Assembly: GCF_004216905.1 (NCBI RefSeq) | Contig: NZ_SGXJ01000003.1 | Location: 558,001-622,000, forward strand | Origin: Kribbella sp. VKM Ac-2569 | GTDB taxonomy: Bacteria > Actinomycetota > Actinomycetes > Propionibacteriales > Kribbellaceae | Reading direction: 5' to 3' | DNA length: 64,000 bases | In this document: positions 47,359-51,032 of the stretch, in pieces | Numbering within the stretch: position 1 is the stretch's first letter | How the letters are laid out: every line of letters starts with the position of its first letter | The notes under the pieces: model-generated | The model's input: only the letters and a program-made list of their open reading frames with translations | What the model was told of the DNA's origin: nothing | Databases searched by the model: none | Position numbers and translations under genes: made by a program

Positions 47359-48174
47359 ATGTCTGTTTCTTCTGCTCTTGAGCTCGGCGCCGTTGTCGAG
47401 CGGTTGCGTGCGTCCGGATGTGTGTTCGCCGAGGACGAGGCGGCCTTGATCTTCGAGACCGCGCGCGATGCGGCCGAGCTCGGCGCGATGGTCGACCAGC
47501 GGGTCGCCGGGTCGCCGTTGGAGTACGTCGTCGGCTGGGCCTCGTTCCGCGGGCTGCGCATCGCCGTTGATCCGGGGGTGTTCATCCCGCGTCGTCGTAC
47601 CGAGTTCTTGGTGGCCGAAGCGCTGCGGGTCGCCGTCGCGGGCTCGGTCGTGCTGGACCTCGGCTGCGGCTCCGGTGCCTTGGGTGCCGCGGTCGCGGCC
47701 GACTGCGAGGTGTCGCTGTACGCCGCTGACATCGAGTTGGCCGCGGTGCGAAGCGCACGCCGGAATGTGGAGCCGTGGGGCGGGACCGTGTATCAGGGCG
47801 ACCTGTACGCGGCGTTGCCGGAGCGGTTGCGCGGTGAGGTCGACGTACTGCTGGCGAACGTTCCGTACGTTCCGACCGACGAGATCCGGCTACTCCCACC
47901 GGAGGCCCGTTTGTACGAGCCGCACGTCACGCTGGATGGGGGACCGGACGGCCTCGCGACCCTGCGCCGCGTGGTTGCCGGCGCAGGGGAGTGGCTCAAG
48001 CCCGGCGGTCATCTGTTCGTCGAGATGAGCGACCACCAGGCACCGCTCGCGCGGGCGGTGATGATCGAACACGGCCTGGACGCCGAGATCACCACGGATG
48101 ACGGTCTCGGCGCCAACGTCGTACACGGCATCAAACCCGACGCTGTACGTGGAGTAGGTACTCCCGGCGGTTGA
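47359..48174 (+). CDS. PrmC-related SAM methyltransferase (TIGR03704-like)
   Basis: A 271-residue relative of PrmC/HemK. After an N-terminal helical segment it has SPLEYVVGWASFRGLRIAVD, then PGVFIPRRRTEFLV (PrmC-type start), VLDLGCGSGALGAAVA (motif I) and VDVLLANVPYVPTDE, where the N-P-P-Y catalytic motif is NVPY. That variant defines a PrmC-related actinobacterial family whose substrate is not established; canonical PrmC methylates the GGQ glutamine of release factors. Its 3' end overlaps the convergent ribosomal-protection GTPase by 44 bp, another translation-linked gene. Confidence 0.82.
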   Translation: MSVSSALELGAVVERLRASGCVFAEDEAALIFETARDAAELGAMVDQRVAGSPLEYVVGWASFRGLRIAVDPGVFIPRRRTEFLVAEALRVAVAGSVVLDLGCGSGALGAAVAADCEVSLYAADIELAAVRSARRNVEPWGGTVYQGDLYAALPERLRGEVDVLLANVPYVPTDEIRLLPPEARLYEPHVTLDGGPDGLATLRRVVAGAGEWLKPGGHLFVEMSDHQAPLARAVMIEHGLDAEITTDDGLGANVVHGIKPDAVRGVGTPGG

Positions 48175-50095
48175 GGGGGTCGTGGTCGGTGCGCGGGCGT
48201 TCCGGGACGGGGCCGGTCACCGGATGGTAGCGCTCGAACGCCGACTCCAGGACGCCCTCGCCGCGGGTGAGGGCGGGGAGCTGCTGCTCGAGTTCGTACA
48301 CGGCTGCCGCGGGAATTTCTCCTTCCAGGGTTGAGGTTTCCGCGGCCAGCGCCGGGACCTGCGGGATCGCCCGGAGCCGGGCGAGGGCCGCGAGTACGGC
48401 GCGGGTCGTGTCGGTCGGGATCTCCAGACGGAAGCGGTGCATCGGCTCGTGCACCGTCGTACCCGCTTCCTGGAGTGCGGTCATCAGGACCAGCGGGGTG
48501 AGGAACCGGAAATCGCCGGCCGTGCTGGACATGCTCTTGTCGAACACGGCGTGGGCGTGACTCTGGCGGGCGGAATATCCCGAGTGCGTCATCACCACTC
48601 GGGCGTCGGGGATCTGCCAGCCGTGGATGCCCTGGTGCAGGGTTTCGCGGACGGTTTCCTCGACGGCCTTGATGAACGCGTACGGCATCGAGCCGAGTTC
48701 GACCTCCAGTTCGAAGGTGACGCCGGCGTTGACCGGTGCCGCTTCGACGCGGAGCCCGACGGTGGCGAGGAACGGGTTCGCGTCCTTCTTGTTGAACTCG
48801 ACCGCCTGCCCGGTTCCGGCGATCCGCTCGATGCAGATCGTGGTGGTCTCGCGGAAGTCGACCTCGATCCCGAAGTCGGTGGCCAGCGTGGACTCGATGA
48901 CCTCCTTCTGCACCTCGCCGTACAGGGAGACGTAGGTTTCCTGGCGCAGGTCGTCCTGGCGGAGGTTGATCAGCGGGTCCTGCTCCGCCAGTTGGGTGAG
49001 CGCGACGCGGAGGTTGCCCTTGTCCGAGCGCTTCCTCGGAGTGATGACCGTTTCGAGCGTGGGTGGGGAGAACGATTGTGCGGAAACAACGTGCCGTTCC
49101 GTGGCGGAAATGTTCCGGAGATCGGTCAGGGTGTCGCCGATGCGGATTTCCGCGAGTCCCCAGAAGCGGCCGATCTGGCCGGCGCGGATCGTCGCCGCGG
49201 GACCTTCGCCGACGACCTCGAGCGCGGTGATCTTCCCGTCCGCGTCGCCGTACCGCACGCGCTCACGCACCTGGGTCGTTCCGGAGAACATCCGCACGTA
49301 CGCGATCTTCTCGCCGGCCGGTCCGCGTTCGACCTTGAACACCGTGCCGTCGAGCGGTACGCCGGTGGTGCGGGCGCGGGGGAGCAGTTCCCGGATGCCG
49401 TCGGCGAGTGCGTCCGTGCCCGCGCCGGTGATCGCCGATCCGAAGTACACCGGGTGGACGATCGCCTGGTGCGTCTGGGTGATGAGTGCCTCGTGCAACG
49501 ACAGCGGTTTGTTGTCGACGTACCGCTGCAGGAGCGCGTCGTCGTGCCGGGTGAGGACCTCCAGAAGGGCGTCCTCCTGCACGATCGGCTTGAACGTCGC
49601 CTCGGGCGTGCCGAGGTACGCCGCCTCGCCCATCGGGACGATCTCCCGGGTGAGTTTCGCGGCGATCTGCCGCAGTACGCCGTCGTACTGCGCGCCGGGG
49701 CGGTCGAGTTTGTTGACGAAGATCAGGGTGGGGATGCGCAGGCGTTGCAGGGTGCGCATGAGTACGCGCGTCTGCGCCTGGACCCCCTCCACCGCCGAGA
49801 TGACCAGGACCGCGCCGTCGAGCACGCTCAGCGCGCGCTCCACCTCGGCGATGAAGTCCGGGTGCCCCGGGGTGTCGATCAGGTTGATGCCGACGTCACC
49901 GATCGTGAACGCGGCGACGGCGGACTTGATCGTGATCCCGCGCTGCCGTTCGAGCGCGAGCGAGTCGGTCTGGGTGTTCCCGTCGTCGACGCTGCCGACC
50001 TCGTCGATGACTCCGGCGGCGTACAGCAGCCGCTCGGTCAGGCTGGTCTTTCCGGCGTCAACATGCGCCAGGATCCCAAGATTCAGTACTTCCAC
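48131..50095 (-). CDS. Ribosomal-protection GTPase (Tet(M)/OtrA-like, EF-G paralogue)
   Basis: A 654-residue translational GTPase of the tetracycline ribosomal-protection family. G1 HVDAGKTSLTE, G2 RGITIKS, G3 DTPGHPDF and G4 NKLD are intact, followed by domains II-V in EF-G order. Family members dislodge tetracyclines from the 30S decoding site. The domain IV loop that does this in Tet(M) (YSPVST) reads DKSMSSTAGDF around 519-528, losing the Tyr and Pro, so drug range is uncertain. GTG 50095 has AAGGA 11 nt upstream, directly beside one arm of an inverted repeat. A 33-codon leader ORF overlaps the start. Confidence 0.88.
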   Translation of the reverse strand: MEVLNLGILAHVDAGKTSLTERLLYAAGVIDEVGSVDDGNTQTDSLALERQRGITIKSAVAAFTIGDVGINLIDTPGHPDFIAEVERALSVLDGAVLVISAVEGVQAQTRVLMRTLQRLRIPTLIFVNKLDRPGAQYDGVLRQIAAKLTREIVPMGEAAYLGTPEATFKPIVQEDALLEVLTRHDDALLQRYVDNKPLSLHEALITQTHQAIVHPVYFGSAITGAGTDALADGIRELLPRARTTGVPLDGTVFKVERGPAGEKIAYVRMFSGTTQVRERVRYGDADGKITALEVVGEGPAATIRAGQIGRFWGLAEIRIGDTLTDLRNISATERHVVSAQSFSPPTLETVITPRKRSDKGNLRVALTQLAEQDPLINLRQDDLRQETYVSLYGEVQKEVIESTLATDFGIEVDFRETTTICIERIAGTGQAVEFNKKDANPFLATVGLRVEAAPVNAGVTFELEVELGSMPYAFIKAVEETVRETLHQGIHGWQIPDARVVMTHSGYSARQSHAHAVFDKSMSSTAGDFRFLTPLVLMTALQEAGTTVHEPMHRFRLEIPTDTTRAVLAALARLRAIPQVPALAAETSTLEGEIPAAAVYELEQQLPALTRGEGVLESAFERYHPVTGPVPERPRTDHDPLNRREYLLHVQRRV

Positions 50096-50159
50096 GCCGC
50101 TTCATGTCCTTAGAACAGGTGCCATCGGTCTCCGCAACAGCCATGAAGCGAGGTCGCAT
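50058..50159 (-). CDS. Leader peptide ORF of the ribosomal-protection gene
   Basis: A 33-codon ORF (starts MRPRFMAVAETDG, ends DPGAC) with a near-ideal Shine-Dalgarno sequence AAAGGAG (50166-50172) 6 nt before ATG 50159. It reads through the GTPase ribosome-binding site and start in another frame, stopping 38 nt inside that gene. The downstream gene's own site is weaker and more distant. Together with the flanking inverted repeat, this is the layout of translational or transcriptional attenuation by ribosome stalling, as known for Tet(M) and macrolide-resistance genes. Expression is inferred, not shown. Confidence 0.6.
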   Translation of the reverse strand: MRPRFMAVAETDGTCSKDMKRRGSTESWDPGAC

Positions 50160-50188
50160 GACGGACTCCTTTACAAGACACCTGTTCT
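50112..50188 (-). promoter_or_regulatory. Attenuator-like inverted repeat enclosing leader start
   Basis: In the minus-strand RNA, AGAACAGGTG (50188-50179) pairs perfectly with CACCTGTTCT (50121-50112). The loop contains the leader Shine-Dalgarno sequence and first codons. The 3' arm lies inside leader codons and ends one base from AAGGA (50111-50107), the GTPase ribosome-binding site. A ribosome on the leader would melt the stem. A -10-like TAGTTT (50235-50230) would place the RNA start near 50223. Confidence 0.6.
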
Positions 50189-50260
50189 TCAGTACGCCCC
50201 GAGTACACCAACCCTTTGCACGTCGGAACAAACTATTTAGCCCCCGCCTACACCGACCCG

Positions 50261-50266
50261 TAGGCT
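50261..50266 (+). promoter_or_regulatory. -10 box of leaderless APH-like gene (TAGGCT)
   Basis: TAGGCT ends 7 nt before ATG 50274. The divergent leader transcript of the GTPase starts about 40 bp to the left, so both promoters are packed in one AT-richer segment. Confidence 0.45.
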
Positions 50267-50273
50267 GACTCAG

Positions 50274-51032
50274 ATGCTCGATCCCATCGCCCTGGCGACA
50301 CCGCACGTGGGTGCCGTCGTCCGTGCGACTCCGGTGAACGGCTTCGTCGGCAACGAGACCTTCCGCCTGGAAACGCGTGCCGGCGTCTACTACCTGAAGG
50401 CTGGCGCGACGGTCGCCGAAGAGGCAGTCGCGTGTCAGCTCGCGCGGACGGTCGGCGTACCTGCGCCGGAGGTGATCGCGTCGTCTCCTCTGATCACGCG
50501 GGAGCTTCCTGGCCGGCCGCTCGCGGCGGACTCGCCGGACCTCGGCGCGGTGGTGCGGATGGTCGGGGAGGGCATGCGGCGCGTGCACACGATCGTCGAC
50601 CCGACGGCGTCCTGGGGAGATCGGCTGCGGGGTGTGCTGGACGGGTTGGACGTGTTGCCGGATCGCCTCGCGGCGCGCCTCCGGGAGGTGGCGCCCGAGT
50701 TCATCGAGAGTGTTGCGGGCGTGACGCCTGCCTTGCTGCACGGGGATCTGCATCTGCGGCACGTGTACGCCGAGGGTGCCGAGTTGACCGGGATCCTCGA
50801 CTGGGGCGACACGACGTACGGCGATCCGCTGTTCGACCTCGCCCGGTTGTCCATGGCTGGGCCGGAGGTGACGACAGCGTTCCTGACGGGGTACGGCGAC
50901 GTCGACGCACCGCCCCGGATGCTGTCGATGTACCGCGTGCTGTGGTCGCTGATCGCGGTGCAGGCGGAGCACGCGGCGGGTGGGGACTGGATTCAGCCGC
51001 ACCTTGACGTGATCGCGCGCGAGCTCAGTTGA
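50274..51032 (+). CDS. Aminoglycoside phosphotransferase (APH)-family kinase
   Basis: A 252-residue small-molecule kinase of the APH/choline-kinase fold. The catalytic loop HGDLHLRH begins at His156, with Asp158 as base; the usual magnesium-binding Asn is His163. ILDWGD (174-179) supplies the second metal Asp. Family members phosphorylate aminoglycosides, viomycin-like peptides, homoserine or sugars. The Asn-to-His change occurs in several APH-like groups. Its divergent pairing with a ribosomal-protection gene makes an antibiotic target attractive but unproven. It overlaps the convergent UMP-kinase gene by 8 bp. Confidence 0.82.
   Translation: MLDPIALATPHVGAVVRATPVNGFVGNETFRLETRAGVYYLKAGATVAEEAVACQLARTVGVPAPEVIASSPLITRELPGRPLAADSPDLGAVVRMVGEGMRRVHTIVDPTASWGDRLRGVLDGLDVLPDRLAARLREVAPEFIESVAGVTPALLHGDLHLRHVYAEGAELTGILDWGDTTYGDPLFDLARLSMAGPEVTTAFLTGYGDVDAPPRMLSMYRVLWSLIAVQAEHAAGGDWIQPHLDVIARELS

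Follow-up and report, generated by a model that had tools for sequence, protein, structure and literature searches.

Why should the gene for a putative ribosome-protection GTPase be preceded by a short open reading frame (ORF) that runs across its start in another frame? The question is raised by a locus on the minus strand of a 64,000-nucleotide stretch of the Kribbella sp. VKM Ac-2569 genome, which we refer to as the window. The features at the center of the question are:

48131..50095, minus: putative Otr(A)-like ribosome-protection GTPase, 654 aa, GTG start
50159..50058, minus: leader ORF, 33 codons plus TGA stop, product MRPRFMAVAETDGTCSKDMKRRGSTESWDPGAC
50060-50058, minus: leader stop TGA, made by the GTPase codons GTT GAC
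50172-50166, minus: leader Shine-Dalgarno sequence (SD) AAAGGAG, 6 nt ahead of the ATG
50111-50107, minus: GTPase SD AAGGA

A conserved leader at Otr(A)-like genes

A sequence-only reading of this region had described a 33-codon minus-strand ORF with AAAGGAG 6 nt before its ATG, an overlap of this leader with the GTPase start in a different frame and a perfect 10-bp inverted repeat whose 3' arm abuts AAGGA. All three are present in the sequence (the leader ends at 50058 and the GTPase GTG lies at 50095). The same reading called the product a ribosomal-protection GTPase, which, as a putative assignment, is right at the family level. Otr(A) is the top NCBIfam match, yet below its cut-off (715.5 bits vs 900); together with tet_protect (680.6 bits vs a cut-off of 775) it makes up the best hits. 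TetO and TetM are the nearest solved relatives, EF-G being further off. The same genome encodes a second such GTPase, 55% identical (G000:C2:661291-663177). The family around this paralogue (paralogue B, L037-L056) has an MR leader of other sequence, mostly with a TTG start, and a different, weaker RNA fold, and keeps the rule for the leader stop described below.

The GTPase gene and a PrmC-related methyltransferase gene (47359-48174, plus) overlap tail to tail at 48131-48174. On the other side, a weak aminoglycoside-phosphotransferase-like gene (50274-51032, plus; 32.9 bits, far under the cut-off) is divergent from the GTPase promoter region. Rfam gave 0 matches at gathering score within the window.

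To see the leader in relatives, homologues were chosen solely on protein similarity. A search of 58 relatives supplied 30 loci (20 of its 95 listed matches being left out), the same match list supplied 40 further upstream regions, and 394 genomes of the class supplied 29 (leaving out a partial match in G599). To these 99 loci we added 20 more divergent ones, giving 119 homology-selected loci; a later comparison dropped proteins shorter than 560 aa. The leader ORF, whose conservation in upstream regions of relatives had been proposed as a check, is present in 30/30 best orthologues. A leader start of the sought kind occurs in 99/99 loci, as ATGCG or GTGCG in 98 and as ATGACA in one, in a search that took only TGCG-type starts (and ATGACAG). 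When the start codon was left open, ATGCG or GTGCG began 19 of 20 leaders (12/13 divergent ones with a P-loop stop and 7/7 from plasmids). The distance from leader start to GTPase start is mostly 64 nt; other values are 58, 61, 67 and 85, all in one frame, and two loci have 65 nt.

The leader frame itself is kept open: over nt 4-64 it is stop-free in 110/110 distinct sequences of the 64-nt type, whereas the other two frames contain a stop in 103/110 and 19/110. Searching named genomes for the leader pattern matched at least 118 stretches, of which 80 were made into loci, and among the matches listed a GTPase directly follows the leader in 77/80. These loci come from Streptomyces, Kribbella, Nonomuraea, Glycomyces, Micromonospora, Actinoplanes, Amycolatopsis and other genera. 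An exact-DNA search with the leader in 396 genomes of the phylum returned the own locus and three stray matches; the DNA diverges, and that sample holds few close genomes. Judged by these comparisons, the leader is a real, conserved and frame-maintained ORF, far more widespread than supposed, and a conserved upstream ORF with its own SD is what a leader-based attenuator calls for. It precedes putative Otr(A)-like GTPases in Kribbella, Streptomyces and numerous further actinobacteria, and on a small number of plasmids from rhizobia and Paenibacillus.

We also considered whether the leader serves other genes. With 77 of the 80 listed pattern loci having the GTPase, this was not retained as a general feature, and L155 looks like a chance match. 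A Deltaproteobacteria MAG has this type of leader ahead of a short MFS-like ORF that gave no Pfam hit (L158 3297-4061, minus); that contig may be misbinned or rearranged.

The leader stop within the P-loop codons

The earlier account of the control region had the leader right and missed where it ends: the stop is fixed in the P-loop codons of the GTPase. An out-of-frame overlap with the GTPase start together with a stop within the P-loop codons is found at 110/119 homology-selected loci (97/99 in the first set and 13/20 among the divergent loci). Among the matches listed from the pattern search, the same holds for 74 of 75 readable loci, the exception (L176) having a leader frameshift; two of the 77 lacked a readable P-loop. 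The stop is supplied by the motif H-V-D-A-G-K, either through GTT GAC (TGA) or, otherwise, through GGT AAG (TAA), and lies 35-44 nt inside the GTPase gene. Of the nine exceptional homology-selected loci, three have overlapping leaders that stop later than the P-loop (L092, L094, L251), three have leaders that end ahead of it (L238, L255, L256), and in three a leader was not found (L252-L254). Six homologues thus lack an overlapping P-loop leader; five of them use GGC for the P-loop glycine, and one (L252) uses GGT.

The two ways of making the stop replace each other. Where the Val/Ile codon is not GTT/ATT, the glycine codon is GGT in 73/75 loci; where it is GTT/ATT, the glycine codon is not GGT in 23/24. 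Over the 99 loci this linkage has a Fisher p of 4e-19, uncorrected for kinship. Elsewhere in these genes GGT makes up 9.9% of glycine codons and GTT 2.1% of valine codons. On a tree of 143 proteins (rows more than 90% identical with equal label thinned, and 40 added loci partly picked for their known valine codon), at least 16 changes of the valine state are counted. Nine pairs on this tree are supported and independent; on average, 8.5 of them show the glycine codon changing in the same direction, and none shows the reverse (p 0.004); a smaller tree with four supported pairs gave p 0.125. On this phylogenetic evidence, the valine and glycine codons of the P-loop are switched together along the tree.

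Could leader and stop simply be by-products of codon bias in the GTPase P-loop? The six other translational GTPase genes of this genome, which we take to be such from their motifs, have GGC three times, GGT two times and GGG once as the P-loop glycine codon, so GGT at that place is found in 2/6, and L252 has GGT with no leader found. An accident is nonetheless hardly credible given the swap between GTT and GGT over independent changes, the GGC in 5/6 homologues that have no overlapping P-loop leader, and the presence of an SD and an open frame ahead of the GTPase. A stop at a fixed place soon past the GTPase start would also suit a positive leader, coupled by termination and reinitiation, such that ribosomes finishing in the P-loop codons move backward and initiate on the GTPase. 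However, a stop 35-44 nt downstream of the start is far for going backward to reinitiate, and the SD-hiding stem described below is not needed for such coupling, which we consider unlikely.

Two crossing RNA stems

Two pairs of complementary arms lie between the promoter region and the GTPase start:

50188-50179, minus: stem 1 (the repeat of the sequence-only reading), 5' arm AGAACAGGTG, a Kribbella addition
50121-50112, minus: stem 1, 3' arm CACCTGTTCT, abutting AAGGA
50150-50142, minus: stem 2 (the conserved stem), 5' arm CGCTTCATG, leader codons 4-6
50106-50098, minus: stem 2, 3' arm CATGAAGCG, between GTPase SD and start

Stem 1 is not easily obtained by chance: in 200 shuffles of the 183-base region, ten perfect pairs arose in none and nine in four. 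When its arms were sought in relatives, as had been proposed, at least seven consecutive pairs were kept in 16/26 distinct Kribbella sequences, in contrast to 1/37 from other genera, the remaining 36 lacking them. Stem 1 was therefore rejected as a general sequestering element: it is specific to a lineage, and it crosses stem 2, so its formation would work against the block instead of producing it. The element over the GTPase start that is kept across families is stem 2.

Several results point to stem 2. When every 7-bp helix was compared over 63 distinct leaders, the best one joined nt 15-21 (leader codons 5-7) to nt 51-57 (GTPase SD and spacer); in most relatives stem 2 also covers the GGA of the GTPase SD. 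In the gapless alignment A1, stem 2 is paired in 96.8% of cells and slid versions in at most 50.4%. Cells changed on both sides number 15 vs 3.2 by shuffling, whereas the count of double-change pairs and that of further pair types in A1 were both within the range of shuffles; most of the unambiguous double changes (CATG to CGGG with CATG to CTCG) belong to a single clade. RNAalifold returns the same stem. With a fixed window for the SD duplex, the duplex is stronger than 95% of those with shuffled 5' arms in 64/74 loci of the main type, 4/18 of paralogue B and 2/12 of other types. Pairing of leader codons with the SD region of the resistance gene, as expected of an attenuator, is present in the main type and weak in paralogue B and the others. 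In several divergent types other sequence is folded over the SD, as seen by eye in whole-region folds. Comparative folding thus identifies stem 2, not stem 1, as the widely conserved RNA element.

Does the peptide matter as well? In the leader loop (codons 8-16), entropy at third positions is 1.20, against 1.47 and 1.46 at first and second positions; with third positions not more variable, peptide-level selection is not seen. A conserved start MR and conserved stretches such as FMS and KDM could be taken to mean that the ORF encodes a small protein with a function of its own and is not a regulatory leader. Yet the conserved residues coincide with the stem arms, and the loop codons behave as just described, making this alternative very improbable. 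Peptide-specific stalling as a general trigger (for example at Arg-X-Arg in MRPRF) is likewise not favored, as only codon 2 (CGN) is constant outside the stem arms, and the search of the 99 loci, having taken only TGCG-type starts, does not count as evidence for that constancy. Loop codons free of peptide-level constraint fit a general sensor of slow ribosomes.

We next modeled a ribosome on leader codons 1-6. In 37 non-Kribbella sequences, this brings the probability of stem 2 down from 0.85 to 0-0.22. Mean SD accessibility goes up from 0.30 to 0.37-0.49, with an increase in 30-35 of the 37. With the ribosome at codon 4, the SD gain over all 63 sequences is 0.16 (54/63 rise) vs 0.05 with the 5' arm shuffled. 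In the 26 Kribbella sequences mean SD access is nearly flat (0.47 to 0.45-0.51). In the window itself stem 1 wins at equilibrium, stem 2 has a probability of 0.10 and there is almost no gain on stalling, so equilibrium folding as proof of a switch fails for this sequence. We take stem 1 of Kribbella for an anti-sequester that would form as long as the leader start is occupied by a stalled ribosome; alternatively, the two stems may combine into a pseudoknot.

Proposed attenuation and known systems

The earlier account, sound on the leader, also missed a candidate WhiB7/WblC-type promoter upstream. The candidate promoter consists of:

50240-50202, minus: WhiB7/WblC-type promoter, after the motif published in PMC7157823, with mismatches
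50240-50235, minus: box CTAAAT, off GAAAWY in its first two bases
50231-50226, minus: -35 element TTGTTC, with an 18-nt spacer to the -10
50207-50202, minus: -10 element TGTACT, off TANNNT at base 2

WblC promoters of S. coelicolor, as laid out in PMC7157823, have GAAAWY, 3 nt, TKGMNN, 16-19 nt and TANNNT; the window layout, CTAAAT-N3-TTGTTC-N18-TGTACT, fits this spacing and core with mismatches. A relaxed WblC pattern fits 49/99 homologous loci (shuffled mean 0.0) and, among the matches listed, 22/77 pattern loci (shuffled mean 0.05); it is absent from 50/99 loci, the own paralogue included. A scan for sigma-70 promoters found nothing. From the motif, the transcript is predicted to start at about 50195, upstream of the first arm of stem 1 and so not downstream of 50159, as a transcribed leader had been said to require. 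The same source reports that S. coelicolor tetM (SCO0783) is bound and activated by WblC, which would place the window-type unit and wblC in the same regulon.

Taken together, these observations are best explained by a conserved translational attenuator under a WhiB7/WblC-type promoter, an explanation we hold to be probable. The ORF, its frame and stop, the stem and the promoter motif, with their conservation, can be read directly from the compared sequences. Under translation stress, mRNA would be made from the WhiB7/WblC-type promoter, and the leader, having a good SD, would be translated. On ribosome-free RNA, stem 2 would hide the GTPase SD and the start would be shut, since leader codons 5-7 pair with the SD and spacer. 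Moving leader ribosomes would cover the start as well, because the leader crosses it out of frame, and would leave at the P-loop stop 35-44 nt inside the gene. A drug-stalled ribosome at the leader start or first codons would remove the 5' arm from stem 2 and halt this traffic; with the arm taken out and the traffic stopped, the GTPase would be made. We infer leader translation, stalling and induction, with tetracycline as one trigger. Ribosomes arrested by tetracycline at the start of a uORF extend as far as +16 to +18 (PMC12121999), and here this edge falls within stem 2. The sequence-only reading had proposed that ribosomes slowed on the leader switch on protection; since the leader is conserved in frame and its codons base-pair across the GTPase SD, attenuation through ribosomes slowed on the leader stands as the best reading, without the repeat that had been named as its element.

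Alternatively, stalling in the leader could prevent an intrinsic or Rho-dependent terminator, as in wblC itself or topAI. In the same organisms, wblC and genes of the ABCF type rely on a uORF-driven form of such transcription attenuation (PMC11550727 and PMC12421871), and Rho acts in topAI (PMC12121999). However, scanning 49900-50400 gave no terminator-like site, intrinsic terminators of the wblC type between leader and gene included, and the overlap of the leader with the gene start leaves no room for one. We therefore regard transcription attenuation as quite improbable; Rho-dependent termination inside the gene could add to the translational attenuator.

How far does the translational attenuator extend? 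All 4/4 actinobacterial plasmid homologues have the leader with the P-loop stop, in 3/4 rhizobial plasmid homologues (L310, L311, L312) an MR leader overlaps the gene and runs on to a later stop, and a Paenibacillus plasmid gene (L316) has the leader with a GTT GAC stop. By the same rule, an overlapping leader was not found for tetB(P) or tet(O/W/32/O), one record each. To our knowledge, WhiB7 is not expected outside actinobacteria, rhizobial and Paenibacillus hosts included, so the attenuator may stand there without a WhiB7-type promoter. In Nocardia aurea (L120 434-2267, minus), the leader together with the 16 opening codons of the GTPase has been joined in frame to an ABC exporter of 590 aa, and a promoter-like stretch lies upstream too, as judged by eye. 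The retained GTPase part ends directly after the leader stop, pointing to this stop as the end of the functional unit. A full ribosome-protection GTPase was not seen in this genome (best match 2e-38), and in 118 genomes of its genus a single further homologue of the exporter reaches E <=1e-100 (42%, with the alignment beginning at residue 24).

A more specific proposition is that the P-loop is dual-coded: its synonymous positions would carry the stop of an overlapping repressive leader, leader translation would itself be the repressor, through ribosome traffic over the GTPase start and the SD-hiding stem, and the stretch from promoter to stop would form a portable cassette, captured whole by at least one ABC exporter gene. 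To our mind the chances of this proposition are evenly balanced. A dual-coded P-loop would be a clean case of overlapping selection on synonymous sites, and the MR leader with the GTT/GGT P-loop rule would give a genomic signature for inducible protection genes. Ribosome-protection GTPases are common in antibiotic-producing actinobacteria, and the literature covered credits their induction to WblC transcription. If the proposed attenuator is real, a translational layer would explain the silence of the GTPase until ribosomes slow, through a drug sensor that works without peptide-specific stalling.

In the portion of the full-text literature covered, which includes few subscription papers and preprints, no overlapping leader is described for genes of the Otr(A)/TetM type. 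Eukaryotic stress genes (ATF4) have overlapping uORFs, and the proposed likeness is that leader translation would itself be repressive. The ermC leader is separate from its gene and its stall is peptide- and drug-specific, whereas the window-type leader overlaps the gene and peptide constraint is not seen. The tet(M) leader is also separate and acts on transcription, again in contrast to the overlapping leader of the window type. What ermC would share is that a stalled leader ribosome exposes the resistance-gene SD (PMC6685928), and what tet(M)/tet(W) share is a leader ahead of a ribosome-protection gene; PMC3350403 gives the role of the tet(W) leader as unknown.

The whiB7/wblC uORF is likewise an actinobacterial uORF sensing slowed translation, but it uses a Rho-independent terminator (PMC11550727), whereas the window leader overlaps its gene and no terminator-like site was found around it. 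In E. coli, codons of the toiL uORF of topAI-yjhQ likewise base-pair with the SD of the gene that follows, and this SD becomes free when tetracycline halts a ribosome at the beginning of the uORF (PMC12121999). This system differs in gene and phylum, and a uORF stop in catalytic codons of the next gene is not described in the consulted text of that paper. The system of the window differs further in having a WhiB7-type promoter and, in Kribbella, two crossing stems.
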